NCBI GenBank assembly: GCA_015069695.1
Contig: JADCRZ010000007.1
Location: 1 to 64,000 of the forward strand
DNA: 64,000 nucleotides
Source of the DNA: Williamsia sp.
GTDB taxonomy: Bacteria; Bacteroidota; Bacteroidia; Chitinophagales; Chitinophagaceae
Reading direction: 5' to 3'
A model generated the notes under the pieces. The model was not told where the DNA came from. It saw only the letters and a list, made by a program, of their open reading frames with translations, and did not search any database. Positions 24,535 through 45,232 of the stretch are shown here, in pieces (the stretch's first letter is position 1; each line of letters opens with the position of its first letter). The position numbers and the translations under genes were made by a program.

Positions 24535-24563
24535 ACACACAAATTCATTTTATCACAAAATCT

Positions 24564-25828: not shown

Positions 25829-25861
25829 AACACACGATTTCCTTCTTCACGAATTAAAACT

Positions 25862-26542: not shown

Positions 26543-26549
26543 ATTCGCT

Positions 26550-26930
26550 CTATTTTAATTTTTCAAATTTGTTAGCGCCGGAAAACAAAACACCGCTTTT
26601 GGGGTCAAACGTGTAAATCTTGCCCGAGCGGGCCTCTTGCAACTTTTTGCCCTGCGCATCGTAGATGGCGGCTGTCGTGGTAACCTTATACTCGGGCTCT
26701 TGTGGTTGTCCGGCTAATACCCGCTCGTATCGCCAACGCCGGGTCAATTGGTATTGGTTTGCCGTAGCATTTTGCAACTCGATAGCCAGCGTATCCCATT
26801 CCTTGCCATACTCATGTTGGGATACATGAACGTATGTACCGGGTATAAACGCTTGCACATCGTCGGCCGGAGCCGAATTGCAACTGGCGAAGAAGGTCAA
26901 AAAGCCCAAAATGGCGATAACAGGTTTCAT
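26550..26930 (-). CDS. Small lipoprotein of the conjugation operon
   Basis: 126 residues with a signal peptide and lipobox (FFASCNSA, Cys about 17). The mature part is beta-rich (FIPGTYVHVSQHEYGKEWDTLAIELQNATANQYQLTRRWRYER) and ends KSGVLFSGANKFEKLK. I know no functional assignment; by position between TraG and TraI it may be the VirB7-like lipoprotein or an entry-exclusion factor. It lies 5 bp downstream of traG. Confidence 0.75.
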   Translation of the reverse strand: MKPVIAILGFLTFFASCNSAPADDVQAFIPGTYVHVSQHEYGKEWDTLAIELQNATANQYQLTRRWRYERVLAGQPQEPEYKVTTTAAIYDAQGKKLQEARSGKIYTFDPKSGVLFSGANKFEKLK

Positions 26931-26935
26931 ATTCT

Positions 26936-29377: not shown

Positions 29378-29697
29378 TTCAGCAAGGCCTTTTTAAGTTT
29401 TTGGATGGAGTAGCTCTTTACCACCCGTGGTACAGCTTTACGGGCCAACTTTTTCATAAGCCCATGTTCGCCATGTGTGCGGCTTAGCTTATACACAAAC
29501 ATGAACAGCCCGGCCCCGAAAGAAAAAATAATGGCCAGGCAAAAGAAGATGTGCACACCGGCGATATAGAGGATGGCAAACAACACCAGCAAGGATACAA
29601 GCCCGCCGCCCAAGTACCAGATGTATTGCGCCTTCAACCCTTTAAATTCAACAGGCTTGTTGATGCCTTTATTGATTTGGTAAATGCTGTTTGCCAT
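29374..29697 (-). CDS. traF: Conjugative protein TraF (DUF4133, VirB3-like)
   Basis: 107 residues: IYQINKGINKPVEFKGLKAQYIWYLGGGL at the start, two adjacent membrane helices (about 25-45 and 48-69) and a basic tail. This is the DUF4133 pattern of TraF in Bacteroidota elements. Inner-membrane partner of the TraG ATPase. First gene of the second leftward operon; the conserved promoter-proximal element begins about 20 bp upstream. Confidence 0.92.
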   Translation of the reverse strand: MANSIYQINKGINKPVEFKGLKAQYIWYLGGGLVSLLVLFAILYIAGVHIFFCLAIIFSFGAGLFMFVYKLSRTHGEHGLMKKLARKAVPRVVKSYSIQKLKKALLK

Positions 29698-29718
29698 GAC
29701 TGATTACGTGCCAATAAT

Positions 29719-29786
29719 GAAGCAAAGCTTTATCCAAAGTGGAGACATCAAGGGGTAAACGAGGTAGGACAACCTCCGACAAACGG
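29719..29786 (-). promoter_or_regulatory. Conserved conjugation-operon promoter element, copy A (upstream of traF)
   Basis: Read on the minus strand it holds a GTCCTACnnCGTTTACCCC block, then a -33-like TTG, 18 nt, and a -7-like AAGCTTTG (29723-29730), about 26 bp before the traF ATG. It aligns without gaps to 38059-38126 (offset 8,340). Nearby, ACAAACG (29779-29785) and CGTTTGT (29800-29806) form an inverted repeat. The stretch 29807-30100 shows no convincing gene. Confidence 0.6.
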
Positions 29787-30110
29787 GTTGATAATCTTGC
29801 GTTTGTATCTACCAATTTTGGCAGAAAGCTGGGTGAGAGAAAGTCGAGAATGTTCAACTTGTTTTCACAGACTGTTTTCACATTAGCTTTAACCGTATGA
29901 ACTGTATTAAATGATTTACCGACAGAAATGTAGAAAGGCTGACGATAAAGTATAACCACTGTAAAGAACCGACCGACAAGCTGAGTGCTTTGTTAACCTG
30001 CATAATGAATTTGGCAAAAGTTAAGTATGCTTGTTGTTACACTAAGCGGTTTTGTTATGTAAGCCCTTACCCTTTTGAATTGTAATCCACCGTAAAGCCA
30101 GCTTTGAAGA

Positions 30111-30125
30111 CTTGTTTGAAACAAG
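30111..30125. promoter_or_regulatory. 15-bp palindrome before the orphan gene at 30158
   Basis: CTTGTTTGAAACAAG is a perfect palindrome around a central G, 32 bp upstream of the ATG. It has operator-like size and position; no regulator can be assigned. Confidence 0.4.
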
Positions 30126-30157
30126 GCAAATTTTCAATCATAAAAAACAAGACCATT

Positions 30158-31072
30158 ATGAGAGTTCTACTTTTGATTTTATCATTACTGCTTGTGCGCT
30201 TCTCCAATGGACAAGAAATGGCGTATAAGTTTGGACACCTTTTCAAGCGCTCATTGTCGAGCAAAGGAACTCTGTACGTAGTGCAAGAGGGCACAGCTAC
30301 TCGAACAGATATTGTTGGAAAGATCAATGCTAACGAACTAATACTCATAAGCCCTGCTGATGCCAGTCAGACGTTGAGAAACAGCACCGATATCTTGCTT
30401 AGAAACCAAGCCGCCGTTGAAACGAAAACCTACACTCCGAAAACAATCAACAGCAAGCTCAAAGGCGTCATCCAAAAACGAAGCAAGGACGGCAACAACG
30501 ACACATTATTGATCCGATTTTGGGATATTACAAATGAACTGGCAACCTTTACAGCCAATGCAGCTATCGTGAACTCGACCAACAATGGACAAGACTTTAT
30601 TTTTGTTATCAATCCCACCTACTGGGCTACTCACAGGGTTTTGCAAATACCGTATAGGACTTGGCAGTTCACTGCCACAAATCTTCCATTCAGGATACTC
30701 ACAAAGACTGGAGACTTAGAAGCTGAATTCCTCAACGCAAACGTTTCGTTTATCAAAACATTTGGACATACCAAGATTTATCAAAGTGAATTTGTTGAGC
30801 CTCGCAACTGGTCTTTGTCAGTTGGCCCATACCTTGGACTGACCGCGATTGACAATCCTTCTGCTACCAACGACAACAAAAAAGAATTTGGATTAAACTA
30901 TGGGTTGAACGGCATCTACGCTGTGCAAAATTTTAATATCACAGCAGCATTTGGTTTTCAAAATGGTTTTAAGGAGCAAACCAGATCGGTACAGCCTTAT
31001 ATTGGTTTCGGAGTGGGTTTTAAACTTGTCGAATTTTTTACTCCAGAAATCAAAGACAAAGAAAAGGATTGA
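30158..31072 (+). CDS. Secreted or outer-membrane protein of unknown function
   Basis: 304 residues from ATG 30158, chosen because it starts a clean signal peptide (MRVLLLILSLLLVRFSNGQE). The middle resembles no family I know. The last 110 residues alternate hydrophobic and polar positions and carry barrel-like strands (SLSVGPYLGLTAI, FGLNYGLNGIYAVQNFNITAAFGFQNG, QPYIGFGVGFKLVEFF), so a small outer-membrane barrel is plausible. It is the only rightward gene between two leftward transfer operons; surface exclusion or accessory cargo are possibilities, not shown. Confidence 0.7.
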   Translation: MRVLLLILSLLLVRFSNGQEMAYKFGHLFKRSLSSKGTLYVVQEGTATRTDIVGKINANELILISPADASQTLRNSTDILLRNQAAVETKTYTPKTINSKLKGVIQKRSKDGNNDTLLIRFWDITNELATFTANAAIVNSTNNGQDFIFVINPTYWATHRVLQIPYRTWQFTATNLPFRILTKTGDLEAEFLNANVSFIKTFGHTKIYQSEFVEPRNWSLSVGPYLGLTAIDNPSATNDNKKEFGLNYGLNGIYAVQNFNITAAFGFQNGFKEQTRSVQPYIGFGVGFKLVEFFTPEIKDKEKD

Positions 31073-31152
31073 CTAAAGAAGTCACAGCCATTAACTGTCT
31101 GGTCAGGTGTAAATACCATTTCTTGAAAACCTAATCGCAGAGAGCATGGAGT

Positions 31153-34100
31153 TTACACTCCCATACCTCTGGAAGTCTTTTTACATTCCACTTTTTTTGG
31201 CAGCAAAGATTTTTCAGTTTTGTCAACAGTCTTGCCATTTTGCCCGTTTGTTTCAGCCAGTTGATTTTTCTGAATTTTGATGGTAATCTCTCTTTCCAGC
31301 CGGGCCACTTCCGTCTTCAGGTGCGTTAGCTCAGTCTCTTTGTCAAAAGGCTTGTGTGCGATTTGGTGTAAGATGGGAATATTCGCTTCAAGTTCCTGCA
31401 AGGTCTTTTGGTATTTCTCCCTGGTTGCTTCCACCCGGTCAACTGCATTTAAAAAGTACCGGGCAGCCAGCTTAGGATTATCGGCATTCAGGTGCCCACC
31501 GTTCCAAAAGTATTTTAGCCCGGTTTCCTTGCTTTGGGTGTAAAACACGTTTTTCAGATAATATTCAAACATGTCTTTGTCCTCGTAGGTTTCCCGTTGT
31601 TGGCGGATGTAGAGGTCAAATCCATATAGGGTTCCAATGACCTGTTCATTTTCAGCCCCCGGCTCCGGCTTCCAATTTTGGGACAGACCGATTAAATAAT
31701 GACCGATGGCTTCTGCGTCACTCAACGAAAAGCCATGCAGCCGGATAGGGTTTTCCTTTGTGCCGTCTTTATCGTAACGCAGGTTTGCCCCGTATGTTGC
31801 TTCGTCCACGTTCAGCTTGCCAAGCGTCTGCAGGGTGCTTTCTTTTTCACCTTGCAATTCGTCCAACTTAAACCGTGACCGGACAATTTCCTTGTGATGT
31901 GCATTGCGCAGGCTTTCCAGTACGGCAATCTTTTTCTCCAGCTTCGATTTTTCCAGTAGCGTTGTATCGCCGGATAGAATTGCGATGTATTCCGAGAAAT
32001 TCATCCCACTTTTTTCGTCAATGCTACCTTCATCAATGGTACGGACGTTCAGTTCGCAGTTCTTCATTTGGCTGATGAAGGTTTGCTTGTTCTTGAGCAA
32101 ATTAAACTTGTAGTTGTCCAAGGACTGCTCGACGGCATAAATGAAGTTCCTTACCTTGTTGCCAAAGGCTGTTTTTGCCAACACATTTCCCTGGCGGGAG
32201 CCACGGCCATTTCGCTGCTCCAGTTCCGATGGTTTCCATGGAATATCGAGGTGGTGCATAGCTACTACTTTGGCTTGTACATTCAAGCCCGTGCCTGCCT
32301 TTTCGGTACTACCAATCAATATGCGGATTTCGCCCCGGTTCATCTTACGAAACAGTTCCGGCTTTTGCTTGTCGTTCCAATCGTGGATGAAGGTGATGGC
32401 ATGGGCTGGCAAGTTGAAATCCCGAACCAGTTTTTCCTTTAGAGCGTCGTAAACATTAAACTCACCGGGCTTTGGGGTACCAATGTCACAAAAAACGATT
32501 TGCGTGCCCTGATGCTCTGCACTTTCCTTGTAGATGTGGGCTACGCTTCGGGCACAAACGTTCACCTTGTTATTCGGATGGTCACCATAAACAAACGGAT
32601 CAATCAACCGCATGTCGGCAGCCATTTTCTTAGCATAGTTGGTGGCAATCAACATGCGTCCTTTGTCCTCGGCATCTGTGAGCGGCGGCCGGCCGATCAA
32701 TGCACCGTCGCCGGTTTTGGCAAAGGCCATTAGCTTTTTAATAAAAACTTCTTGTTCGGGCGTCGGTTTGATGTTGACAAGCTGCTCGTCCAGTTCTGGT
32801 TTGTCAAGGTTGATGTGCTTTGCCGTTTTATAGTCGGTGATTTCGTTGTAGAACAGCGCCAGTTCGGGCACTTTGATGAAATGGCGGAACCGCTCTTTTG
32901 CAATGATTTCGTTGGTTACGGAAAATTCAAAGTCCACCGTTTTTTTCGCAAACACGGCCGCCCAACCGTCAAAGTTTTCGATGCGCTGCCGTTCCATTTC
33001 CTTTGGCCGCAGGTATTTAAACAGCAAGTACATCTCCGTAAGACTGTTGGAGATGGGAGTACCGGACAAAAAAGTGACACAGAGGTCTGCATTGAATTTG
33101 GCCTGCAGCTCCCGTATCGCAAAAAGCATGTTCAATGCCTTTTGGCTTCCTTCCTGGTTGCCAAGACCCGCAACTCTGTCGTGGCGGGTGGTAAAGGTTA
33201 GGTTTTTAAACTTGTGCGCTTCATCCACAAACAAGTGATCAATGCCCAATTCCTTGAAATTGATGCCGGTGTCTTTCTTTTCGGCAATATCTCTTGCAAT
33301 GCTTTTTAGCTTGATAGCAAGATTGTTCTTCCGGATTTCCAATCCCTTCAACATGCGCCGAGAGATTTCCCCGCCCATATTTTTTAGCGTGCCCAGGTCA
33401 CGCTCCACATTATCCAATTCCGATTGGAAGATTTGTATTTGGATGTCCGGTGACTGCGGTATTTTCCCGAATTGGTCATGTGTAAGGATGATGCAATCCC
33501 AATTGTTGTTCTTGATTTCGTTGAAAAGCCGCATCCGTTTAGCCGGTGTAAAATCAGTTTCACCCGGAGCCAATACCTTGGCGGCCGGATACGCTTTACG
33601 GTAGGTTTCGGCAATCTGGTTCACATTTGCTTTCAGCGCAAGTATCATGGGCTTTTTTATAATGCCCAATCGCTTCATTTCATATGAAGCTACCACCATC
33701 GTGAGCGTCTTGCCTAAGCCCACCTCATGGTCTATCAAGGCACCACGATTTTGAACGATACGCCAAACAGAAGCTTTTTGAGAACTGTATAGATCGTCTA
33801 TGCCCAGCCGCTTCCGGTCCAAGCCGGGAAAAAGCAAATGGCTGCCGTCATACTGGCGCAGCACATAGCAGTTAAAGGTGTTGTTATACAACGTCTCTAA
33901 TTCTTTCTTCTCACCCGGCGGCAGCTCCTTCAACCATTCGGTGAACCGTTGCCGGATGGCTTCTATTTTCTGATGCGCCAGTTGAATAGCATCGTTATCC
34001 GGAACCCGAACGGTGCGGTCCCCCAAATCCACTTCGTAGGTGTAAAAGGGTGTGGTGTTTTCCAACGCATGTTCAAGCAGCGTGTGCCCGTACGATGTTT

Positions 34101-36624
34101 TTCCGCTTTTAGGAGTAATGGCAAACTCCTGGTTCGTTTTCGCATTGCTTGTGGTCGTCTTTACCTTGAAAGCATCTACGGAAGAAAAGAAGCTTACCTC
34201 TGTAGGAATTTCAAAAAGATCGCTGGCAAAGCGGTTATAGAGGTGAAGCGGTATCCAGCGTTCCCCCAAATTGAAATCAAGCAGCTCAAAAGGAACCTTT
34301 TCGGGCTGCACCTTTTGCAAGGCTTCAAAACTTTTTTGCAATTGCAGGTTATCGGGCTGACTGTCTGCCGCTGCTTGTGCTACGGCCAGCTTTTGAACGA
34401 CATTGCCACTCAAAAATTGGTCAGCCGTCTCCCAGGCATCTGTAGCTGGATCGAGGTAAATGTGGTGCCCTAACGCCTGTATTACTTCTGCATCCGTGGT
34501 GCCCGTGGCTGCGGCGATGAATGCTATATCCACCCGCCCTTTTTCGTTCAGGCTTCGGGCCAACGCTTCCAAGGGATCATCGGTATGAAACGCTTCTTTC
34601 TTGGTCAATAAAGAGCCGGCAAGGAAATCCGACTTTACAAAGCTGTCGCCTTCCCGGCGCTCTAGCGAGGAAAGCATGGTCAGGCCAAAGGTTTCATCTT
34701 TTAATAAGCGTTGCCGATTGATTGATGCGTTGAGCAGGCCATATTCTTTTATCAGCGCATTGTATTTTTCATTTAGGCGCAGCCGCAGTTCGGGAGGTTC
34801 TACGCCTTCGGCTGTTTCTTTCTCATAAAGCAATAGGTAACTATCCCGAACATCGGTGTATCGTTCATAGAAGTGTAAGTCTTTTTTATCATTGATGGCA
34901 GGAATAAACCCGGGATATTTCTCGTTGCCAGCGGCATAGGACAAAAAACCAATACGGTTATTATGCACAATCAATGTCCCTTCTCGATGAAGTGGGTTCG
35001 GTTCTTTTATCAGCTCTGTCTCTTTCTCCCGGTTCAGGTTTACGTAAAAAGCGCCTTCGCCTTCGTTGTAAAAGCGATGGTCAAAGTCCTGAAGCTTTTC
35101 GGGCAGTTTGGCTATCTCTTTGTAGAACGCCGAAGCATTCATCCAATTGGCGGGAAACCGGAGTTCTTCCACATTGGCATACAGCTTATACACGTAATAC
35201 TTCTGCGCCAGGGCTTTGGCCACAACCATTACGATGGGTTCGTGTTCGGGTTTGTCGGCCGTGCGAACGATATTGAGAATGCGGGCCGATTTTTTATCTA
35301 CTACAGTCCGGTCAAGGTCATTGATGTAAGCGGCGGCCCTGTTGCTTGTCTCTGCCGGTACCATATCAAACAAGCCTAACTGAAACGATGGCGTGTCGGC
35401 CGCGGACTGTGGCAGAGGCAAGTAAGTAAGCTGCTTCTTTTGCGGCGCTTCTGCGTGCTGTAGAAATAAGCCGAAACGTTCACGGTTGATGCGTTGGGTA
35501 ATGCCCTGCGTGAGTACGTTAGCCAATGGTTGCTGCAGGTTCGCCATCTCGCCGCGCTGCCAAATCACTTGGTGGGCTTTGCCATACTGGTTTTTTCCGG
35601 CAGCAATCTCGTCGCCTGTAATTGTTTCCGGATGATTGAACAGGAATTGATTTAGCGGAAATTCACCGAACGAATTGCTTTGCGTTACCGTTTCTACCAA
35701 TTGCCGTTCTTCGTCCGAAAGGCTTTGCTTATCGCTGTTTTTCTGAACAACCAACAGGTGTGACGGCGCTTCCGTGTTGCCCGTGTCCTTCATCAAATTG
35801 TCGGGCAATACGACAACCGAAATAAAATCAGCGGATGAGAAGAGATATTCTCTCGCTTCTTTGTTGGATGGTGAATTTAAAAACGCATCAGTCGTGATAA
35901 AAGCAAGCAAGCCGCCTTCCCGCAACTTCTCCAAGCCTTTTGCAAAAAAGTAATTGTGAATTTTCCCGGTAATGCTTTCGTGATAGGCTTTATCAAGCAC
36001 ACGAAAATTGCCAAAGGGAATGTTGCTGGCAATGAGGTCATAGGTATCGTTGTCTTTGTTGGTGGACTGTTCAAAAGGTGTTATCTGAACATTTGTTGAA
36101 ACAGAAAGTGAACTGGCCAAAGCCGTCAGCACTTTGCCGGACAGAAAATCTTTTTCAACAGCCGTCACCGTTTTAAGACTACTAAACCCTTGCGCCGCTT
36201 CTGTGATGAACACACCGGCACCGCTCGATGGCTCATATAGCCGCTGCGGTTGGAGGTCTAACTTTTTCAAAACCCCATATAACGTTTGCGGCACAACAGG
36301 CGGCGTGTAATAAGCTGTAAGAATACTGTTGCGGATGGAAGCAATTGCCTCTTTGTATTCTTGTTCTGCTAAGAAGTTTTTCAAAACTCCATGTAGCTCC
36401 ATTACTCTTGGATAAAGACTCAAGTCTTCAGTAGAAGCATTGAGCCGCATCCATTCTTCTTTTGGCGCATCGGGAAACAACACCGCTTTTAAACCGCCAA
36501 ATCCAGAGTAGCCTTTTAACACTTCGATCTCTTCTGGGGAAAGGCCCCGTTCCTTCTTCCACGTCAAGGCTACCCGGATGGCGGCAATGTTTGCGTCTAA
36601 TTTTTGGCGGCTGTTGTATGCCAT
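31153..36624 (-). CDS. Giant N6-adenine methylase / SNF2-type helicase fusion protein
   Basis: 1823 residues. An N-terminal methylase-like domain (about 50-330) has [15 protein letters not shown] (SAM motif I) and SNIPFGNF in place of the usual NPPF. The helicase half (about 940-1600) has EVGLGKTL (Walker A), [11 protein letters not shown] (DEAH box), LSGTPISNS and, as motif [15 protein letters not shown]. Coiled segments and the tail [17 protein letters not shown] follow. Such proteins are typical of Bacteroidota ICEs and probably protect or remodel the transferred DNA; activity is untested. It lies 28 bp inside the start of the DUF1896 gene. Confidence 0.9.
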
Positions 36625-37091
36625 GATAATTTCCCTTCTTCCGCTGCAAGGCTCTTGTCAAAATATTCCGAGATGGCGCCGGCGATAGCGTAATACAGCA
36701 GCTTGCTTTGTTCCTTTGTTTCTGAAAAGTGCATAGCATCGAAAAGCTCCTGGCAGAAGACTATGAGGTTGACGGCTTCGTACTTTAATGTGCCTGCTTC
36801 TATCAGCAGCCGGTAGGTGGCACTGAATTCCTCTTCCAGCACTTCGCGGATATAGTTATACTTGGACGGCCGCAAGTCCTGGGTAAGAGCCAACATACAC
36901 CGTTCTTCCAGGATGTATTCTGGCTCCGTAGCATGAGCCTTTAGGACCGCATCTATGCTTGCAATCTTTTCATGCAGATAAGGCGTTACCCCCCGTTCTT
37001 CTTCCAATTGAAACAGCAGATCGGGGTTGTTGTCGCAGATGTAATCAAACAGTTTGTAGATAAGCCGTTCCTGCAGGGCGTTTGAGGCCAT
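36597..37091 (-). CDS. DUF1896 family protein
   Basis: 164 residues, soluble and helical: [29 protein letters not shown], then [24 protein letters not shown] and a C-terminal [21 protein letters not shown]. This is the DUF1896 pattern, a family almost always encoded directly upstream of the large ICE helicase, as here, where the genes overlap by 28 bp. Function unknown; a partner protein of the helicase is the natural guess. Confidence 0.88.
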
Positions 37092-37116
37092 AGGTTTTGT
37101 TTTAGGCGTATTGGAT

Positions 37117-37449
37117 TTAAATACCGAAGAAGGCTCGGATGACAGTAGCCACCACTACCAAGAACACGCAGGAGCCGAACCACGCGGCGGCGACTTTGCC
37201 GGTATCGTGATCGCCGCTGTTCCACTTCTGGTACACTTTGATGGCGCCAATCAATCCGACAATAGCGCCGATGGCATACATCAGGTTTAAGCCTGCGGAA
37301 AAATAGCTGCGCACTTTTTGGTTGGCATCGTTGATACCGGCCGTTCCATCTTGTGCCGATGCAGCAAGGCTGTTCAAGAAGTACCACGACATTACAATAA
37401 ATGAAATCAACTGCCGTTGAACGGTTTTTTTGTCCTTCGCACTACGCAT
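37117..37449 (-). CDS. traE: Conjugative protein TraE (DUF4134, pilin-like)
   Basis: 110 residues with an N-terminal signal segment and two membrane helices. GINDANQKVRSYFSAGLNLMYAIGAIVGLIGAIKVYQKWNSGD and the closing VVVATVIRAFFGI are the DUF4134 signature. VirB2-like pilus subunit candidate. In CTnDOT-type clusters it normally sits next to traF; here it is separated from it by the DUF1896 and helicase genes and the orphan at 30.2 kb. Confidence 0.93.
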   Translation of the reverse strand: MRSAKDKKTVQRQLISFIVMSWYFLNSLAASAQDGTAGINDANQKVRSYFSAGLNLMYAIGAIVGLIGAIKVYQKWNSGDHDTGKVAAAWFGSCVFLVVVATVIRAFFGI

Positions 37450-37548
37450 AACTCACATTTGTTTTAGATGAGAAAATAAGGAAATGCTCCACCCTGTTTG
37501 TCTTATTGCACTTGGTTCTCCTGCCGCAACAGCAGTGGAGCAAATGAT

Positions 37549-38013
37549 TTATCTAAAGAGGTAAGATTTTACTTCATCGGCGGTGAACACACCTGAAAAA
37601 TGCTGGTTGATGATGTCATGAACAGCACTTGCGAGAGTGTCTTTGTAATCGGAGTTGGCAAGCACCGGATAACGGGCCGAAATTTTCTGCAGTGCATACA
37701 GCACTTCTTGTTTGGCAGCATTTTCGGTCTTGGCTTGCTCCAGATATGAGCCTATCTCCAAAAGAAAGCCTTGCACAACCGGCGTAATATCTATATCAGT
37801 AGAGGTATTGGTTTGGTTATTTTCCTGTTCCCAGAGATGATTTGCCTCAAAATTGGCAGCCGAAATGTTGCCGCCATCTGATTGATACCTTACAATGCCG
37901 ACAAGACCTAACAACTCGCGTCGAAAAAAGAAGTACCCAACAGCGATGTAGTAAATGACAAGCAAAAACATAAGCGTAGAGAAGTAGTCGCCCCAGGAAA
38001 TGAACTTAAGCAT
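37549..38013 (-). CDS. Small membrane protein opening the first conjugation operon
   Basis: 154 residues from ATG 38013 (MLKFISWGDYFSTLMFLLVIYYIAVGYFFFRREL). One N-terminal helix (about 9-29), then a soluble region of about 110 residues that is mainly helical. No family recognised, though position ahead of TraE suggests an assembly role. In-frame sequence upstream of 38013 lies in the conserved promoter element and is unlikely to be translated. Confidence 0.75.
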   Translation of the reverse strand: MLKFISWGDYFSTLMFLLVIYYIAVGYFFFRRELLGLVGIVRYQSDGGNISAANFEANHLWEQENNQTNTSTDIDITPVVQGFLLEIGSYLEQAKTENAAKQEVLYALQKISARYPVLANSDYKDTLASAVHDIINQHFSGVFTADEVKSYLFR

Positions 38014-38058
38014 AAAGGATTTTTTAGTATTGCTTTTAAAAATTGGTCTGATGAAATG

Positions 38059-38126
38059 GGAGCAAATACAAATCCAGTTGTGCCAAACGAAGGGGTAAAC
38101 GCAGTAGGACAATCCCCCACAAACCC
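38059..38126 (-). promoter_or_regulatory. Conserved conjugation-operon promoter element, copy B
   Basis: The minus strand shows GTCCTACTGCGTTTACCCC followed by a -7-like TGTATTTG (38063-38070), 50 bp before the start at 38013. It is the gapless counterpart of copy A. A CGTTTGT further upstream (about 38207-38213) also has a counterpart in copy A, but at a different distance. Confidence 0.6.
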
Positions 38127-38265: not shown

Positions 38266-38826
38266 ATGCAAATAATGATAAAGAACATGGTTTGTAACCG
38301 CTGCATCATGGTTGTCCGGCAGGAGTTTGAAAAGGCGGGCATCAATCCCGTTGCCGTTACCATGGGCGAAGTGGAGTTATCAAAGCCGCTTACCGACGAG
38401 GAGTTAAATGACATGGACGAGCGGCTTGCCAACTTGGGCTTTGAAATATTGAATGATAAAAACAGGAAGCTTATTGAGAAAATAAAAACCTTGCTTATCA
38501 AGCGGGTGCAAAGTGGTGAGGTAGAAGAACACTTTAGTCTATCCGAATTTCTGTCAAACCACCTGCACAAGGAATACACTCAAATCAGCCGCTTGTTTTC
38601 CGAAGTGGAAGGCATTACGTTGGAACAGTTTTTCATTCTGCAAAAAATTGAAAAGGTGAAAGAGTGGTTGGTGTACGATGAACTAACCCTTAGTGAAATT
38701 TCTTACAAACTCGGATACAGCAGCGTTGCCCATTTATCTGCACAGTTTAAAAAAATTACCGGTCTTACGCCAAGCTATTTCAAAAAATTTGGCAACACGC
38801 ACCGGAAGTCATTAGATCAACTATAA
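38266..38826 (+). CDS. AraC-family regulator with HMA-like metal-binding N-terminus
   Basis: 186 residues from ATG 38266 (a TTG two codons upstream is the other option). Residues 1-65 look like a heavy-metal-associated domain: beta strand MQIMIKNM, then the VCNRCIMVV CxxC loop, helix, and GEVELSKPLTDEELNDMDERLANLGFEIL. Residues about 85-180 are a normal AraC double HTH (FLSNHLHKEYTQISRLFSEVEGITLEQFF; LTLSEISYKLGYSSVAHLSAQFKKITGLTPSYFKK). First gene of the copper island, 3 bp upstream of the BNR lipoprotein. Probably the sensor that activates the copper promoters. Confidence 0.88.
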   Translation: MQIMIKNMVCNRCIMVVRQEFEKAGINPVAVTMGEVELSKPLTDEELNDMDERLANLGFEILNDKNRKLIEKIKTLLIKRVQSGEVEEHFSLSEFLSNHLHKEYTQISRLFSEVEGITLEQFFILQKIEKVKEWLVYDELTLSEISYKLGYSSVAHLSAQFKKITGLTPSYFKKFGNTHRKSLDQL

Positions 38827-38829
38827 GTT

Positions 38830-39881
38830 ATGAAAACAGCCGTATATCTCCTGCTTGTATCCTTCCTTGTAACAGCTTGCAAAGAACAAACCTCTTTGAA
38901 AGGCTCCGACACGGTTATTGCTCAAGGACAAATGCCGAACCTCGTTAAAGATGGAGCCAAAGATCTGCATTTGGTTTATGGAACCGGCGACAGCATCATG
39001 TATTCCTACTCGACCGATGATGGCATGTCTTTTTCTGAACCCTCCTTAGTATCAGCACTTCCGCTATTGGCTGCCTCCCATACAAGAGGGCCACAAATTG
39101 CCGCAACCGATAAAGGTTTGCTTGTGACAGCCTGCAACAACTCGGGCAACATCTATTCTTTTGTAAAAGAGGCTACCGGCAAATGGTCCCAAACGGCACA
39201 GGTAAATGATGTAGATACTGTAGCGAAGGAAAATTTAATGGCCTTGGCTGCCGACGGTGAAAATGCCTTTGCGGTATGGCTTGACTTACGGGACAAGCAC
39301 AATAAAATTTTCGGGTCTAAATCAAGCGACGGTGGCAGAACATGGTCGAAGAATATTTTGATATATGCTTCTCCCGATACAACTGTTTGCGAATGCTGCA
39401 AACCTTCCGTTGCCATGAGCGGAACCAACGTTTATGTAATGTTCCGCAATTGGATTGACGGCAACCGGGATTTGTATCTTGTTCATTCCACCGATAGCGG
39501 TGCCTCGTTTGGGCAGGCACAAAATTGGGAAATGGAAGCTGGGCATTGAATGGCTGCCCGATGGATGGAGGAGCAGTCGTGGTTGATAAGAACGGCAAAC
39601 CGCAAACGGTTTGGAACCGAAAAGGAACCATCTATTCCTGTGAGCCCGGAATGGAGGAAAAAAAATTAGGGACGGGGCGAGGCTGCACGATGGCAACGAT
39701 CAATGGGAAGAATGTGTATGCGTGGGTTGAAAATGGCGATGTTGTGGTATTGAAACCGCAAGGGATAAAAAAGATCGTTGGCAAAGGTCAACTCCCCGTA
39801 CTCAAAGCCATCAATAATGAGCATGTAGTATGCATATGGGAGAGTGAAAAGATAATACATGAAGCCATTTTAGAACTATAG
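38830..39881 (+). pseudogene. BNR/sialidase-like lipoprotein, split by a one-base frameshift
   Basis: The first part (38830-39549) starts with a lipobox (FLVTACKEQ) and contains BNR-type repeats (YSTDDGMSFSEPS, SKSSDGGRTWSKN, HSTDSGASFG). At the A-run 39521-39524 the frame is lost and a stop follows at 39549. The remaining sequence continues in the +1 frame from codon 39522 (KLGNGSWALNGCPMDGG) to 39881. Adding one A would restore a protein of about 350 residues. A degraded gene, phase-variable tract or sequencing error are all possible. BNR lipoproteins of this kind are often beside Bacteroidota copper genes. Confidence 0.8.
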
Positions 39882-39922
39882 TTTTACTTTTTGCCTGGGC
39901 TTTTCCCAAAAGTGCAAATAAG

Positions 39923-39978
39923 TGTAACACTTTCCTAAAATCCTGTAACAAATCGCCCTGTAAGGCGTCCGAACTTTG
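39923..39978 (+). promoter_or_regulatory. copA promoter with 21-bp-period direct repeat
   Basis: Two perfect copies of TGTAACA at 39923-39929 and 39944-39950 (period 21 bp), then 20 bp, then the -7-like GAACTTTG at 39971-39978. No -33 TTTG is present, which fits activator-dependent transcription. The first copy also lies inside the near-palindrome AAGTGTAACACTT. Confidence 0.65.
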
Positions 39979-39998
39979 CGGTCTCTAAACAGATAATT

Positions 39999-42425
39999 AT
40001 GGATACCAAAGACGATGTTTTAGAATTGCCCCTTTCAGGCGTTGAGAGCGAACATTGTGCTCTCATCGTGGACAATGGGCTTGGAAAGGTTCCCGGCATC
40101 ACTTCCCATAAAGTAGAGCTTAACAATCACAAGGCAGTAATTACCGCCAAAGATAGTGAAGCCATTCCACAAGCTGTAACTGCTATTCGTGATTTGGGCT
40201 ATGACGTAGAAACCGTAAAACAAACCTTTCCCGTGACCGGAATGAGCTGCGCCTCTTGCGCTTCCAGTGCGGAAAGTATCGTGGTGGCGCAACCGGGTGT
40301 AGTGAAGGCTACCGTAAATTTTGCTAACACGTCCTTGCAGGTAGAATATGTGCCGACTATCACCACAGCGGAGAAATTGAAATCTGCCGTACAGGGTGTT
40401 GGCTATAATTTGATAATTGAGGATACCAAGGAAGCAAAACAAGCGTTGGAGGATTTACACAAGGAAAAACTTCAATCGCTTAAGAAAAAAACGATTTGGT
40501 CTATTTCTTTATCTGTCCCGCTCGTGTTGATTGGAATGTTTTTCATGGACATGCCTTATGCCAACTATATAATGTGGGCATTAGCTACACCGGTAGTGCT
40601 TGTGTATGGGCGACAGTTCTTTGTGAATGCGTGGAAGCAAGCGAAGCACCGTTCGGCCAACATGGACACACTGGTTGCCTTGAGTACGGGCATCGCTTAC
40701 ATCTTCAGCGTTTTCAATACGGTTTATCCGCAGTTCTGGCATTCCAAAGGCTTACATGCCCACGTTTATTTTGAAGCGGCAGCGGTTGTCATCGCCTTTA
40801 TCCTCTTGGGCAAGCTGCTGGAAGAAAGAGCAAAGGCTTCTACTTCGTCCGCCATAAAGAAATTGATTGGCTTGCAGCCAAACACCGTAACCGTGGTGCA
40901 CGACGGCGGGCACATGATGGAAATGCCAATCGAAAAAGTAAAGGTTAGCGATACGCTGCTTGTCAAACCGGGTGAGAAGATTGCCGTTGACGGTGTGGTT
41001 ACGTCGGGTTCTTCCTTTGTGGATGAAAGCATGATTAGCGGCGAGCCGGTGGCCGTAGAAAAAGCAAGCGGTGCAAAAGTCTTTGCCGGAACCATCAACC
41101 AAAAAGGCAGCTTTCAATACAAAGCCGAAAAAGTGGGCAGCGATACCCTGCTTGCACACATCATCAAGATGGTGCAGGAAGCGCAAGGTTCCAAAGCGCC
41201 GGTGCAAAAGTTGGTGGATAAGATTGCGGGCATATTTGTTCCGGTGGTCATTGGCATCGCTTTGCTTGCTTTTATTGCATGGATCGTGCTTGGTGGTGAA
41301 AATGGAATGACACAAGGTTTACTGGCCCTTGTAACTGTGTTGGTCATTGCCTGCCCTTGTGCGTTGGGATTGGCTACGCCAACGGCGATTATGGTAGGTG
41401 TAGGCAAAGGTGCTGAAAATGGAATATTGATTAAGGATGCCGAAAGCCTTGAGCTGGCACACAAGGTCAATGCCATTGTATTGGATAAAACAGGAACCAT
41501 TACAAAAGGAAAGCCCGAAGTAGTTGGTGTCAAATGGAAAGACGGAGCCGGTGTGGAAGAATTATCCAACCTTCTTTTCACTATAGAGCAGCAATCTGAA
41601 CATCCGTTGGCAGAAGCAGTAGTGAATTACTACAAATCAAAGGGAGTTTCCTTAGTACAATTAGAACATTTTGAAAGTATAACCGGGAAGGGCGTTTCGG
41701 TATTGTTCGATGGCAACACTTATTTCCTGGGCAGCCCCAAGTTAATGAAGCATGAAGGCATCGTCACCGATGATAGTTTACAGGCACAAGCCGATGCATG
41801 GTTAGCACAGGCATACACCGTTATTTTTCTTGCCGACCGTGAAAATTCTTTAGCGGTAATTGGTATTGCCGACCAGATTAAGGACACGTCATTAACTGCT
41901 ATTCGGGAATTAAACAGTTTGGGAGTTGATGTGTATATGCTTACCGGCGATAATGCAAAAACAGCCGAAGCCGTTGCTGCCAAAACAGGGATAAAAAACT
42001 TCAAGGCAGAAATTTTACCGCAAGACAAAGCAGCTTTCGTAAAAGAGTTACAAGCAAAGAAGAAAACGGTGGCCATGGTAGGCGACGGCATCAACGACAG
42101 CCAGGCGTTGGCGCAGGCCGACGTAAGCATCGCCATGGGCAAAGGCTCTGACATTGCTATGGACGTGGCTAAAATGACGCTCATCAGTTCCGATCTTGCC
42201 CGCATTCCTGCGGCTATTAAACTTTCCCGAAGCACGGTCAGAACCATACGCCAAAACCTCTTTTGGGCCTTTATCTATAATCTGATTGGCATTCCTATTG
42301 CCGCTGGTTTGCTTTATCCTATCAACGGTTTTTTATTAAATCCAATGATTGCCGGTGCAGCAATGGCGTTGAGTAGCATAAGTGTAGTGACCAACAGCCT
42401 CCGCCTGAAATGGTTGAAATTGTAA
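39999..42425 (+). CDS. copA: Cu(I)-exporting P1B-type ATPase
   Basis: 808 residues. N-terminal HMA-like domain 1 (about 8-72) keeps only one Cys; HMA domain 2 (about 75-140) has the GMSCASC metal site. Then eight membrane helices with CPCALG in helix 6 (about 450), YN in helix 7 and MALSS in helix 8, the P1B-1 (Cu+/Ag+) signature. The phosphorylation site is DKTGTIT (Asp about 495), the hinge GDGIND is near 700, and the HP dipeptide is in SEHPLAEA. It exports Cu(I) from cytosol to periplasm. Followed by copZ; both share the same operator type. Confidence 0.96.
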   Translation: MDTKDDVLELPLSGVESEHCALIVDNGLGKVPGITSHKVELNNHKAVITAKDSEAIPQAVTAIRDLGYDVETVKQTFPVTGMSCASCASSAESIVVAQPGVVKATVNFANTSLQVEYVPTITTAEKLKSAVQGVGYNLIIEDTKEAKQALEDLHKEKLQSLKKKTIWSISLSVPLVLIGMFFMDMPYANYIMWALATPVVLVYGRQFFVNAWKQAKHRSANMDTLVALSTGIAYIFSVFNTVYPQFWHSKGLHAHVYFEAAAVVIAFILLGKLLEERAKASTSSAIKKLIGLQPNTVTVVHDGGHMMEMPIEKVKVSDTLLVKPGEKIAVDGVVTSGSSFVDESMISGEPVAVEKASGAKVFAGTINQKGSFQYKAEKVGSDTLLAHIIKMVQEAQGSKAPVQKLVDKIAGIFVPVVIGIALLAFIAWIVLGGENGMTQGLLALVTVLVIACPCALGLATPTAIMVGVGKGAENGILIKDAESLELAHKVNAIVLDKTGTITKGKPEVVGVKWKDGAGVEELSNLLFTIEQQSEHPLAEAVVNYYKSKGVSLVQLEHFESITGKGVSVLFDGNTYFLGSPKLMKHEGIVTDDSLQAQADAWLAQAYTVIFLADRENSLAVIGIADQIKDTSLTAIRELNSLGVDVYMLTGDNAKTAEAVAAKTGIKNFKAEILPQDKAAFVKELQAKKKTVAMVGDGINDSQALAQADVSIAMGKGSDIAMDVAKMTLISSDLARIPAAIKLSRSTVRTIRQNLFWAFIYNLIGIPIAAGLLYPINGFLLNPMIAGAAMALSSISVVTNSLRLKWLKL

Positions 42426-42434
42426 ACAAAATTC

Positions 42435-42490
42435 TGTAACAGAAAATCAAAATGCTGTAAAAAACCGAGCGATGCAGATAATTAATTTTG
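42435..42490 (+). promoter_or_regulatory. copZ promoter with 21-bp-period direct repeat
   Basis: TGTAACA (42435-42441) and TGTAAAA (42456-42462), period 21 bp, then exactly 20 bp, then TAATTTTG (42483-42490), an exact TAnnTTTG match. Same geometry as at copA. Confidence 0.65.
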
Positions 42491-42509
42491 AACTCTAAAA
42501 TCAACAATC

Positions 42510-42722
42510 ATGAAGCAGTATCAGTTTAAGACGAATATTAATTGCGGTGGTTGCGTAGCCAAGGTTACGCCGAAGCTGAATGAAAACCCCGATATACAAG
42601 AATGGAACGTGGATACAACAAATCCGGCCAAAATCCTGACTGTGAAAACAGATAACCTCGCTGCCGATGAAGTTAAGAGCATCGTAGCAAGCGCTGGATT
42701 TAAGGCAGAAGTAGTAGATTAA
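42510..42722 (+). CDS. copZ: CopZ-like copper chaperone (HMA domain)
   Basis: 70 residues forming a single HMA domain: KTNINCGGCVAKVTPKL holds the CxxC Cu(I) site, then alpha/beta to ILTVKTDNLAADEVKSIVASAGFKAEVV. No signal peptide, so cytosolic. Expected to ferry Cu(I) to the ATPase encoded 85 bp upstream. It has its own promoter and a strong terminator right after the stop, so it can be expressed in large excess over the ATPase. Confidence 0.93.
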   Translation: MKQYQFKTNINCGGCVAKVTPKLNENPDIQEWNVDTTNPAKILTVKTDNLAADEVKSIVASAGFKAEVVD

Positions 42723-42729
42723 CGAAACC

Positions 42730-42757
42730 AAAAGGATGGCTTGCTGCCATCCTTTTT
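42730..42757 (+). terminator. Terminator after copZ
   Basis: Perfect 11-bp arms AAAAGGATGGC (42730-42740) and GCCATCCTTTT (42746-42756), loop 5 nt, T-rich tail. The region 42758-42930 that follows contains no recognisable gene. Confidence 0.9.
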
Positions 42758-42938
42758 AATTTTACCGCATGATCATTGTTCAAAAAATAGGCAGGATACT
42801 TCTTCAAATTTTGAAGGCCATCTTCGTGCGAAAAAAGGATTGCTGCAGATGACATGTTGCCTGCTTCTACCAAGATTATATAAGCACCTTACCAATTAAA
42901 TATAAAAATCAACAATTCTCATTTTTCTTTCCGTTTTC

Positions 42939-43007
42939 CGTAAAGCCAATTCCCAATTCCGTAAGAAAACACACGGCGCTTTCAAACACTTTCGCCCCAT
43001 AAAGTGT
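42939..43007 (+). promoter_or_regulatory. TonB-receptor promoter with 21-bp-period repeat and hairpin
   Basis: CGTAA repeats at 42939-42943 and 42960-42964 have the same 21-bp period as the copA/copZ sites. At the expected distance the -7-like CACTTTCG (42987-42994) is weak. ACACTTT (42986-42992) and AAAGTGT (43001-43007) form an inverted repeat just before the ATG at 43016, which could fold over the ribosome-binding region. Confidence 0.45.
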
Positions 43008-43015
43008 AGAACTAA

Positions 43016-45232
43016 ATGAGAAAATTCTTGATAGCCGGTTTTGTATTCAGCAATACTGTTTCATTTGCACAGGCAGAAAAACAAGGCAAGACCGCAGACA
43101 CCATCCCTGCAAAATATTTATCCGAGATAACCGTCGTTGGCCGTGGAAGTAAAAGCGATTACCAGCAAATGCCGGAAGTTGTAGGCACCAATATCTATGC
43201 AGGAAAGAAAAATGCCCTCATTGTTTTGGACAATGTGCAAGGCAACGTTGTAACAAATACCATGCGACAGGTCCTTGCCAAAATACCGGGCATTCAAATC
43301 TGGGAAAGTGACCCAAGTGGAATACAGATCGGCATTGCGGCAAGAGGATTAAGCCCTAATCGTAGCTGGGAGTTCAATGTGCGGCAGAATGGCTATGACA
43401 TTGCAGCCGACCCCTTTGGCTACCCCGAAGCGTATTACAATCCGCAATTGCAAGGTGTGCAACGGATAGAAATTGTGCGTGGCGCCGGCTCATTGCAGTA
43501 CGGTCCGCAGTTTGGCGGCATGGTTAATTATATCCTTCGCAACGGCAGCGACATGACGAAAAAGTTTGAGGCTGAAACCCAGCAAACCGTGGGAAGCAAT
43601 GCGCTGTTTAACAGCTACAATGCCATCGGCGGGAAAACAGATAAAATAAATTACTACGCCTTTTTTGACCATCGCAACGGCGATGGCTGGCGGCAAAACA
43701 GCCGTTATTATACCAATGCAGGCTTTGCGACATTCACCTATTATCTGTCGCCTAAATTTTCGCTGACCGCCGAAATCATGCGCTCCCATATACGCAGCCA
43801 GCAGCCCGGCGGGTTAGCAGATAGTCTTGTTTATAACAATGCGCAGTCAAGCAACAGAAGCCGTAATTGGTTCGACCTGACATGGACAACGCCGGCACTG
43901 ATAGCCAACTACCAGCTGAATGAAAAAACCCATTGGAACACGAAGTTGTTTGCCACCATCGGTGACAGGAATAGCGTTGGCTTTCTTCAATCAATTTTGG
44001 TGAAAGACAGCATCAATAATTCAACCGGCGAGTACAACAAGCGTGTACTGAATATTGACCAATACCGAAACTATGCTTTGGAAAGTCGCATGATTACCGG
44101 TTATCGCGTAGGCAAAACGAACAACACACTATCCGGTGGCATTCGTCTTTACACGGGCGAAACGTACCGGCGGGCCGATGGCAAAGGAACAACGGGTACA
44201 GATTATGACATGAGCGTGATTGGTAACTATCCACGTGACATCCGTTTTAAGTCTAACAACATTGCTGCCTTTGTAGAAAATATTTTCCGTTTATCCAGCA
44301 AGCTGCTCGTCATTCCGGGTGTCCGTTATGAATGGTTAAAAGGTTCTGCATCTGGTCGCAACGGGTTTGCGTCTAACGGCGCGGAAATCATTCTTCAAAA
44401 CATCAGCCGCAGCCGTAGCTTTGTTTTGGTGGGGGTTGGTGCCGAATATCATATTACCCAGCAAACAGAATTTTACGCCAACTACACACAGGCCTACCGC
44501 CCCATACAATTTGCCAACCTGCAGGCGCCACCCACAACCGATGTTGTGGATCCAAACCTGAAAGACGCAAAAGGATATAATGCTGATTTAGGCTATCGTG
44601 GCAAGGTGAAAAACTTCATTCAATTTGACGTAAGTGGATTTTACTTGCAATACAACAACCGTGTGGGCACCATTACTGTTACCAATCCCGCAGGTGTTAC
44701 GCCAGCTACCTACAGGCTCATCACGAATGTAGGAGCAAGCACCAGTAAAGGGTTTGAAGGGTATATTGAATTTAATCCGGTAAGGGCCTTTTCAAAAAAC
44801 ACAAATGCTGACTTGATTGTCTTTGGTTCGTATAGCTATCTTGATGCAAAGTACAGTGGCGACCACAAAGATGCTGCAACGAAAGGAAAGAAGGTGGAAA
44901 ATGCACCATCCACTATTTTCCGTGGCGGCCTGTCGGCGGGCTACAAAAATGTTTTGGTCACGGGGCAATTGAGCTATGTCGGCGAAACCTTCAGCGATGC
45001 AAACAATACACTACAGCCTACTGCTAATGCTCAAAATGGCTTAATTCCATCTTATACCGTAGCAGATTTAACGGCTACCTATAAATTTTCAAAGGCATTG
45101 AACATTAAAGCCGGTATAAATAATTTGTTTGATGAACGCTACTTTACCCGCCGAGCCGGTGGTTATCCCGGCCCCGGTGCTTTGCCGGCTGATGGACGGA
45201 CATTCTTTTTAAGCGCAGGTGCAAAACTGTAA
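43016..45232 (+). CDS. TonB-dependent outer-membrane receptor (FecA-like)
   Basis: 738 residues with a signal peptide (MRKFLIAGFVFSNTVSFAQA). The plug domain spans about 40-170 (VLAKIPGIQIWESDPSGIQIGIAARGLSPNRSWEFNVRQNG, IEIVRGAGSLQYGPQFGGMVNYI) and a 22-strand barrel follows, ending in the aromatic-poor but typical FFLSAGAKL; the C-terminal TonB box FNNLFDERYF is present. No SusD partner and no carboxypeptidase-like extension. The barrel resembles ferric-citrate/siderophore receptors. In this island it may move a copper or other metal complex, or secure iron under copper stress. Confidence 0.9.
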   Translation: MRKFLIAGFVFSNTVSFAQAEKQGKTADTIPAKYLSEITVVGRGSKSDYQQMPEVVGTNIYAGKKNALIVLDNVQGNVVTNTMRQVLAKIPGIQIWESDPSGIQIGIAARGLSPNRSWEFNVRQNGYDIAADPFGYPEAYYNPQLQGVQRIEIVRGAGSLQYGPQFGGMVNYILRNGSDMTKKFEAETQQTVGSNALFNSYNAIGGKTDKINYYAFFDHRNGDGWRQNSRYYTNAGFATFTYYLSPKFSLTAEIMRSHIRSQQPGGLADSLVYNNAQSSNRSRNWFDLTWTTPALIANYQLNEKTHWNTKLFATIGDRNSVGFLQSILVKDSINNSTGEYNKRVLNIDQYRNYALESRMITGYRVGKTNNTLSGGIRLYTGETYRRADGKGTTGTDYDMSVIGNYPRDIRFKSNNIAAFVENIFRLSSKLLVIPGVRYEWLKGSASGRNGFASNGAEIILQNISRSRSFVLVGVGAEYHITQQTEFYANYTQAYRPIQFANLQAPPTTDVVDPNLKDAKGYNADLGYRGKVKNFIQFDVSGFYLQYNNRVGTITVTNPAGVTPATYRLITNVGASTSKGFEGYIEFNPVRAFSKNTNADLIVFGSYSYLDAKYSGDHKDAATKGKKVENAPSTIFRGGLSAGYKNVLVTGQLSYVGETFSDANNTLQPTANAQNGLIPSYTVADLTATYKFSKALNIKAGINNLFDERYFTRRAGGYPGPGALPADGRTFFLSAGAKL

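Follow-up and report, generated by a model that had tools for sequence, protein, structure and literature searches.

A regulator joining an HMA domain to an AraC domain, and its tandem operator, as a probable copper-sensing system of Bacteroidota

The 64,000-nucleotide stretch of Williamsia sp. DNA analyzed here (contig JADCRZ010000007.1, positions 1 to 64,000), which we call the window, contains a copper island that opens with the gene for a small regulator, P0001, in which a predicted copper-binding domain of the HMA type is joined to an AraC-type DNA-binding domain. It is followed by a frameshifted BNR-repeat gene, the copper pump gene copA, the chaperone gene copZ and a TonB-dependent receptor gene (Table 1). 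An earlier note on this DNA had pointed to direct repeats with a 21-bp period before the last three genes and had proposed that the regulator reads them as a direct sensor of Cu(I). Our analysis indicates that this HMA-AraC regulator, together with an operator of which the repeat forms part, is probably how many Bacteroidota sense excess copper.

Table 1. Genes and sequence elements of the copper island, in window coordinates
Feature	Position	Strand	Evidence
HMA-AraC regulator, 186 aa (P0001)	38266..38826	+	HTH_18 E 1.5e-15; HTH_AraC E 7.9e-9
Predicted HMA-type sensor domain, residues 1-65, C10-x-R12-C13	38266..38460	+	Invariant motif, profile matches, predicted fold
AraC-type double helix-turn-helix domain, residues 96-174	38551..38787	+	Pfam HTH_18; best Foldseek matches are AraC-type DNA-binding domains
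BNR-repeat secreted-type gene, frameshift-split into 38830-39549 and 39525-39881	38830..39881	+	BNR_2 E 4.1e-11 (first piece)
copA operator TGTAACACTTTCCTAAAATCCTGTAACA	39923..39950	+	28.9 bits, top site in window (window in training); R1 E 1.4e-6
copA -7 element GAACTTTG	39971..39978	+	TTTG 52 bp from operator start
copA, Cu(I) P1B-type ATPase, two HMA stretches	39999..42425	+	TIGR01511 607.1 bits, cut-off 397
Candidate copZ operator TGTAACAGAAAATCAAAATGCTGTAAAA (weak; retains the repeat but has no TTCC block)	42435..42462	+	Perfect repeat; 7.6 bits
copZ -7 element TAATTTTG	42483..42490	+	TTTG at 52
copZ, HMA copper chaperone	42510..42722	+	Pfam HMA E 7.5e-7
TonB-receptor sister operator CGTAAAGCCAATTCCCAATTCCGTAAGA, not assigned to the HMA-AraC regulator	42939..42966	+	27.5 bits with TonB-type matrix (trained with it), 11.0 with copA matrix
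TonB-dependent receptor	43016..45232	+	TonB_dep_Rec_b-barrel E 3.4e-42; TonB-siderophor 180.6 bits, below cut-off 223.5

The repeats stand where the earlier note had placed them, with TGTAACA at 39923 and 39944 before copA, TGTAACA and TGTAAAA at 42435 and 42456 before copZ, and CGTAA at 42939 and 42960 before the receptor gene. A mismatch-free TGTAAMA-N14-TGTAAMA occurs at two places only in the 64 kb, before copA (39923) and copZ (42435), and in none of 300 windows drawn from a first-order Markov model. As a single word, TGTAACA shows no enrichment in the window (10 occurrences against 7.65 expected). The spacing described in the note was also found as stated: 20 bp separate the second copy from the -7 element at both genes (39951-39970 for copA and 42463-42482 for copZ), and an 8-mer ending in TTTG follows.

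Relatives of the regulator were collected, in sampled genomes at an expectation value (E) of at most 1e-25 and from 80 named loci. By their titles all of these loci read as Bacteroidota, and most of the nearest belong to Chitinophagaceae or Chitinophagales. From 25 copA-upstream stretches (that of the window included) we learned a 28-bp matrix, without promoter information, whose consensus is TATAACTCTTTTCCAAAATAATGTAACA. It shows that the repeat is real, yet only part of a longer operator, TRTAAM-TCTTTTCCA-WAAT-NN-TGTAACA, which recurs throughout the family 19-20 bp before a lone -7 element and holds a conserved middle block, TTTTCCA-WAAT, between its half-sites. This block is partly kept in the copA site of the window (CTTTCCTAAAAT) and hardly in the copZ site (AAAATCAAAAT). 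Scanning both strands of 116 loci and a 14-kb stretch of the window (~1.06 Mb in all) at a cut-off of 15 bits gave 82 sites, not all of them independent, as some loci are near-duplicates, against 1 in one block-shuffled copy. Locus L001, a duplicate of the window, was left out of the 82 sites and of the offset count below, and kept in the shuffled control and the leave-one-out test.

The distance from operator to promoter is almost fixed. TTTG begins 52 bp from the start of the site in 49/82 cases and 51 bp in 23/82, with at most three sites at any other offset; among sites from loci outside the training set, 44/50 have it at one of these two offsets. Ten sites have no TTTG there, and in its place four carry CTTTA and two ATTCG. 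We aligned 40 sites from the named loci that scored at least 17 bits and had TTTG at 51 or 52, removing sites more than 90% alike, so that TTTG is present in this alignment, and in the model R1 built from it, through selection. Half-sites and middle block are conserved, columns 29-47 are nearly without information, and conservation returns at the -7 element, where an A three places before TTTG reaches 1.83 bits. The element is otherwise degenerate, its first position being G in 25/40 and T in 9/40. Promoters of Bacteroidota consist of a -33 TTTG and a -7 TAnnTTTG, 19-21 bp apart, a layout that puts the second half-site at -33. The box itself is missing, as the note had said, since TTG occurs in the -33 zone of only 4 of the 40 sites, about the level of chance. 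The proximal half-site thus occupies the position expected of an activator. A further hit on the plus strand at 25022 (11.4 bits, TTTG at 52) falls within a gene encoded on the opposite strand and was taken as chance. Autoregulation finds no sign among the 82 sites, for none of which the regulator gene is the next gene; a conserved -7 element close upstream of the regulator start, considered separately, is not general.

The operator follows the regulator gene in most loci where copA or an HMA-MauE-like gene comes next. In a leave-one-out test of 114 loci, regulators at least 70% identical to the one tested (ungapped, ~165 residues) were dropped from training and the 260 bp after the regulator scanned at a cut-off of 12 bits. 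A site was recovered in 31/35 loci in which copA is the next gene (27 with TTTG in place), in 26/28 in which it is an HMA-MauE-like gene (26 with TTTG in place), and in the single copZ-next locus (1/1). In only one locus (L055, 12.8 bits) did the highest-scoring of 20 shuffles exceed this cut-off. Among the six misses next to copA or an HMA-MauE-like gene, three (L041, L044 and L107) have a strong site overlapping the regulator end, outside the scanned stretch, and the other three (L060, L073 and L080) score 7.3-9.4 bits with TTTG in place. The site is kept even where the regulator is only 44-48% identical to that of the window (L107, L085). Regulator gene and site occur together in the culturable relatives Lacibacter cauensis (L052) and Taibaiella chishuiensis (L107). 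The earlier note had taken the absence of the repeat upstream of copA or copZ, with the regulator nearby, as the outcome that would speak against it; for copA this outcome was not seen, as 31 of 35 copA-next loci carry the site. The HMA-MauE-like gene (cluster c4, for example L061:6645-7383) combines an HMA domain with a membrane part and is the commonest next gene besides copA, at 28 against 35 of the 114 loci.

The same association holds between genomes. Model R1, a sequence-only model built from the 40 sites without the window, was searched against 395 Bacteroidota genomes, some of which may coincide with genomes of the training loci. Regulator relatives are present in 181 of the 395. A site match at E<=0.01 was found in 73 genomes, 71 of which carry the regulator, and at E<=0.001 the regulator is present in 39/39. 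Only 2 of the 214 regulator-less genomes have an R1 site; a CopA-like pump (E<=1e-120) is found in 335/395 genomes, and therefore in at least 154 of these 214. Within the window's own family, 71/147 genomes have a match at E<=0.003. The co-occurrence for which the note had suggested a genome scan is thus seen, and together with the leave-one-out adjacency it supports the repeat as the probable operator of this regulator.

In the window's own genome, R1 matches at E<=10 comprise the copA site of the window, which is the best (E 1.4e-6), a site on C157 (E 7.8e-6), another on C167 (E 0.0475) and one weak match (E 1.84). The C157 site adjoins a regulator paralogue and precedes a cysteine-rich frame whose sequence resembles a four-helix copper-storage protein, and the C167 site adjoins another paralogue and precedes an HMA-MauE-like gene. 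Two more paralogues lie about 10 kb beyond the window (C179:74437-76738; L003, L005 and L176), surrounded by RND-type and CPMHP-containing genes; between them is a weaker site (11.0 bits, with GAACTTTG in place) before a 100-residue cysteine-rich frame.

The regulator itself belongs to the AraC/XylS family by its C-terminus, which matches HTH_18 with 57.7 bits (cut-off 33.6) and HTH_AraC with 35.9 bits (cut-off 26.6). Both models also match all 58 relatives in the protein conservation set, taken from 81 regulators (80 named and that of the window), and the AlphaFold2 model of the protein has a mean predicted local distance difference test score (pLDDT) of 90.9. At the N-terminus, where the earlier note had suspected an HMA-like domain, N7, M8, V9, C10, R12 and C13 (NMVCxRC) are invariant in 58/58 relatives. 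A profile of these 58 N-termini searched against PDB sequences returned 42 rows at E<=1 with copper HMA proteins on top, among them ATP7B (E 7.4e-16), CopZ (2qif, E 5.6e-5) and CopA. Residues 1-65 are predicted to fold as beta-alpha-beta-beta-alpha-beta (pLDDT 94.0). Judged by title, HMA-type chains make up 27 of the first 30 fold matches, with template-modelling scores by query of 0.54-0.75; the matches include MerP and GolB, and none passes E 0.001 (best 0.011). The profile-profile comparison of the N-terminus with CopZ is weak (E 0.00017, probability only 49.7), and the HMA identity therefore rests on the PDB profile search and the fold matches. By family profile, ferredoxin-like fold and CxxC motif, residues 1-65 are thus a predicted HMA domain, and the suspicion of the note is borne out.

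The genes downstream of R1 matches were read at the 30 best of a longer list and at 25 new loci from the own-family search; their identities, like the name HMA-MauE, were read from the sequence and not by family search. They are mainly copA, copZ, HMA-MauE-like genes and genes of other HMA proteins. At ten loci of the 30-set, not counting L121 of the own genome, the search found no regulator within 1.5 kb, although one of them (L129) has a regulator about 1.4 kb away, cut by the locus end. Among these ten, the site precedes copA in L124 and L129, copZ in L138 and a small cysteine-rich secreted gene in L141 and L150. Eight of the 25 new loci (L151-L175) likewise have no regulator near, and their next genes comprise two for CopA, two HMA-ATPase-like, one HMA-MauE-like and one for a CPMHPE protein, with L167 unrelated and L164 unplaced. 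The copper regulon that the note had proposed is supported for copA and copZ, with other HMA genes as further members, and not for the TonB receptor, whose operator is distinct. For copZ the outcome is mixed in the window itself: its repeat is perfect and better sites precede copZ in several other loci, but the window site is weak and without an R1 match.

The CGTAA repeat before the TonB receptor is present with the same period, as the note had observed, and it is conserved. It forms part of a sister operator, CGTAAA..TTTCCC..CGTAA, with the same 21-bp period and the learned consensus CGTAAATCnATTTCCCnATTnCGTAAnn. Of the 24 receptor or relative loci of the family (the window's is one of them, and two have little or no upstream sequence), 15 score at least 23 bits with a matrix trained and scored on this same set, the best shuffle for those 15 reaching 7.0, and TTTG stands at 51 or 52 in 11 of the 15; at the corresponding position the window site reads CTTTC instead of CTTTG. 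The two operators are well separated. The copA site of the window scores -10.6 with the TonB-type matrix against 28.9 with the copA matrix, the TonB site of the window is not among the own-genome R1 matches at E<=10, and in 24 TonB-upstream stretches besides the window's the copA matrix finds just one site (L180, 8.0 bits) that reaches 8 bits and exceeds its 20 shuffles. An AraC protein of another type, with 318-362 residues, lies 0.1-5.4 kb from the receptor in 3/7 enlarged regions, in which such proteins were sought only by similarity to P0001, so that others may be missed. We have therefore dropped the receptor, which the note had counted in the same regulon, and from the distinct consensus and the neighboring 318-362-residue protein we conclude that another AraC protein probably uses this repeat as its operator. 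The sister operator also occurs at L180-L187, L189-L193 and L200. More broadly, Bacteroidota may commonly place tandem AraC sites at this spacing upstream of the -7 element.

We consider it likely that the 186-residue protein is a one-component cytoplasmic copper sensor which, loaded with Cu(I), acts as a class II activator of copA, probably of copZ, and of other copper genes. In this scheme Cu(I) would probably be bound by the N-terminal domain, of the CopZ/Atx1 type, through C10 and C13, as its homology to copper HMA domains suggests. The AraC-type domain would probably sit, as a dimer, on the tandem TRTAAM-TCTTTTCCA-WAAT-NN-TGTAACA operator, its proximal half-site taking the place of the -33 box 19-20 bp before the degenerate -7 element. 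The copper-loaded protein would then most likely recruit or hold RNA polymerase, turning on copA, probably copZ, and the other copper genes. E. coli AraC binds tandem half-sites 21 bp apart at araBAD, the proximal one overlapping the -35 region, and is a class II activator there; we favor the same class here because the second half-site lies on the -33 position. What is observed is the conserved operator with its fixed promoter spacing, its adjacency to and co-occurrence with the regulator, the HMA homology and the copper genes as targets; that this protein binds the site, as a dimer, and activates in response to Cu(I) is inferred.

The regulator might instead bind the site as a repressor or dual regulator, the apo-protein sitting on the promoter until Cu(I) releases it or converts it into an activator. 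MerR-type copper regulators behave in this way, and a half-site over the -33 region might equally well obstruct polymerase as attract it. With the -33 box missing (TTG in 4/40) and the -7 element degenerate, however, these promoters look weak unaided, and the spacing fixed in 72/82 sites is needed for activation and not for repression, which makes this alternative unlikely in our judgment. A similarly low probability attaches to a domain that senses not Cu(I) but another soft metal or thiol stress, such as Ag(I), Au(I), Hg(II) or oxidants. HMA CxxC domains do bind several soft metals, and the fold matches include MerP and GolB; the targets, however, read as copper export and chaperone genes, copA is a copper pump of the TIGR01511 type, and copper HMA domains head the profile matches. 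It seems considerably less probable still that the operator, though copper-linked, serves some other AraC protein and is merely accompanied by the HMA-AraC gene. The TonB sister operator, with the same layout, seems to belong to another AraC type and suggests that several AraC proteins may share the plan, but it is exactly the HMA-AraC regulator that is found in 71/73 site-bearing genomes, and the site follows this regulator, even among divergent relatives, at most loci with copA or HMA-MauE. Chance, or residue of a recent common ancestor, can draw on the lack of enrichment of the single word but is scarcely credible given one shuffled site against 82, the leave-one-out adjacency, the fixed TTTG offset, and a site kept at 44-48% regulator identity (L107, L085) while spacer columns 29-47 are nearly without information.

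Several results weigh against a Cu(I)-responsive HMA-AraC activator acting through this operator. Outside the copA, HMA-MauE and copZ classes, the leave-one-out test recovered few sites after the regulator: 3/8 where a c7 gene comes next, 0/3 for Csp, 0/6 for c25, 0/3 for BNR (two of these being the same place, in the window and L001), 1/28 for other genes and 0/2 without a gene. In the window and L001 the operator lies beyond the BNR gene, and the Spirosoma and Aquiflexum-type subfamilies mostly have no canonical site; the Spirosoma loci L093, L098 and L104 carry an operator variant with TGTAAAA in place of TGTAACA. In the genome survey, 110 of the 181 regulator-bearing genomes have no R1 match at E<=0.01, partly owing to the strictness of the search and to divergence among subfamilies. 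Five of the ten regulator-less loci (L134, L135, L136, L137 and L144) precede no recognizable copper gene. The copZ site of the window, at 7.6 bits, ranks only sixth on the plus strand, and R1 does not report it in the own genome at E<=10. Pfam HMA (PF00403) has no match to the window regulator at E<=0.1 or E<=1, and matches 21/58 relatives at E<=1 (best E 0.0033). Finally, loci and genomes are related, some of them near-duplicates, so that the counts and Fisher values overstate independence.

Other features of the island and its surroundings are worth recording. The BNR-repeat gene has relatives near the regulator elsewhere (cluster c12: 10 members in 10 loci, median 357 residues), and the window copy shares a CECC stretch with the one relative examined, in L098. 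Before the island, a minus-strand run (23287-38112) contains genes that resemble conjugation genes, by reading and without a family search. In L046 and L054, clusters c33 and c39 from this run are again found next to the regulator, and the copper island may therefore ride on a conjugative element.

Cytoplasmic copper sensing in Bacteroidota looks like an open question. A 2024 copper inventory of the flavobacterium Bizionia argentinensis describes MerR and CopY-family homologues without known copper sites, lists two ArsR-family proteins for cytoplasmic regulation, and notes that the copA genes are not beside a regulator and chaperone, unlike in other Gram-negative bacteria; its displayed regulator table contains no AraC protein (PMC11213822). 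The CueR model (TIGR02044) exceeds its cut-off in 0/238 Bacteroidota genomes and in 1/14 control genomes. Weaker MerR matches to it occur in 51/238 at E<=1e-10 and in 27 at E<=1e-25; 14 of these 27 also have the HMA-AraC gene, so that CueR-like proteins and this gene are not mutually exclusive, and in some genomes without the gene (G003, G008, G050, G058 and G155) a CueR-like gene adjoins a CopA-like pump. CsoR-family proteins (PF02583) are found in 72/238 genomes and 6/14 controls, and only 8 of the 72 have the HMA-AraC gene; the Fisher test of this pair takes the 238 genomes to be handles G000-G237, 116 of them with the regulator, which is an assumption. In the genome of the window, no PF02583 match reaches E<=1e-5. 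CsoR and HMA-AraC rarely share a genome, as if they were substitutes, and in good part this separation is phylogeny, because a single family (f18) accounts for 52 of the 72 CsoR genomes.

A more far-reaching model, which we put forward only tentatively and regard as doubtful, would make HMA-AraC proteins the main cytoplasmic Cu(I) sensors of much of the Bacteroidota, replacing above all CsoR. In it, a docking CopZ-type chaperone would hand Cu(I) to the HMA domain, and a Cu(I)-bridged pair of HMA domains would form a dimer that fits the 21-bp operator and replaces the sigma contact at -33. The operator of the family is sharp enough to predict targets and would make the copper regulon of environmental Bacteroidota readable. 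The family would also provide a promoter architecture in which a tandem AraC site takes the place of the -33 box. Pfam recognizes the family only as an AraC-type helix-turn-helix protein, and among the open-licence PubMed Central matches listed, a scope outside which subscription papers and preprints fall, we found no description of an HMA-AraC copper regulator.

With this family, the known copper sensors would gain an AraC/HMA class. The familiar cytoplasmic Cu(I) sensors that control copA and copZ are CueR, of the MerR family, and CsoR, whose folds are unrelated to HMA-AraC. A CueR-type site is a palindrome within a 19-bp -35/-10 spacer; P0001, in contrast, is AraC-type and its probable operator consists of tandem half-sites lying before the -7 element, which places it outside that class. 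It is likewise no member of the CsoR/RcnR family, as PF02583 is not among its Pfam matches. With E. coli AraC at araBAD it shares the tandem half-site layout, but AraC has a sugar-binding cupin domain and no metal. The closest parallel by description is YbtA of the Yersinia high-pathogenicity island, an AraC-family activator with a copper response, which answers to the Cu(II)-yersiniabactin complex, regulates siderophore genes, and requires a CXXC pair (C206/C209) for activity, placed by its authors in a cysteine-rich N-terminal ligand-binding domain (PMC8725597). Both are AraC-family proteins with a link to copper and a CXXC pair. As far as that description allows a comparison, the regulator studied here differs in carrying its CxxC in an HMA domain at positions 10-13, in its length of 186 residues without a long ligand-binding domain, and in its targets. 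Its N-terminus has, by prediction, the fold and CxxC motif of the CopZ/Atx1 chaperones and of the HMA domains of CopA and ATP7B; unlike in any of these, the HMA domain is joined to one that binds DNA by prediction, and its CxRC motif contains an invariant arginine.

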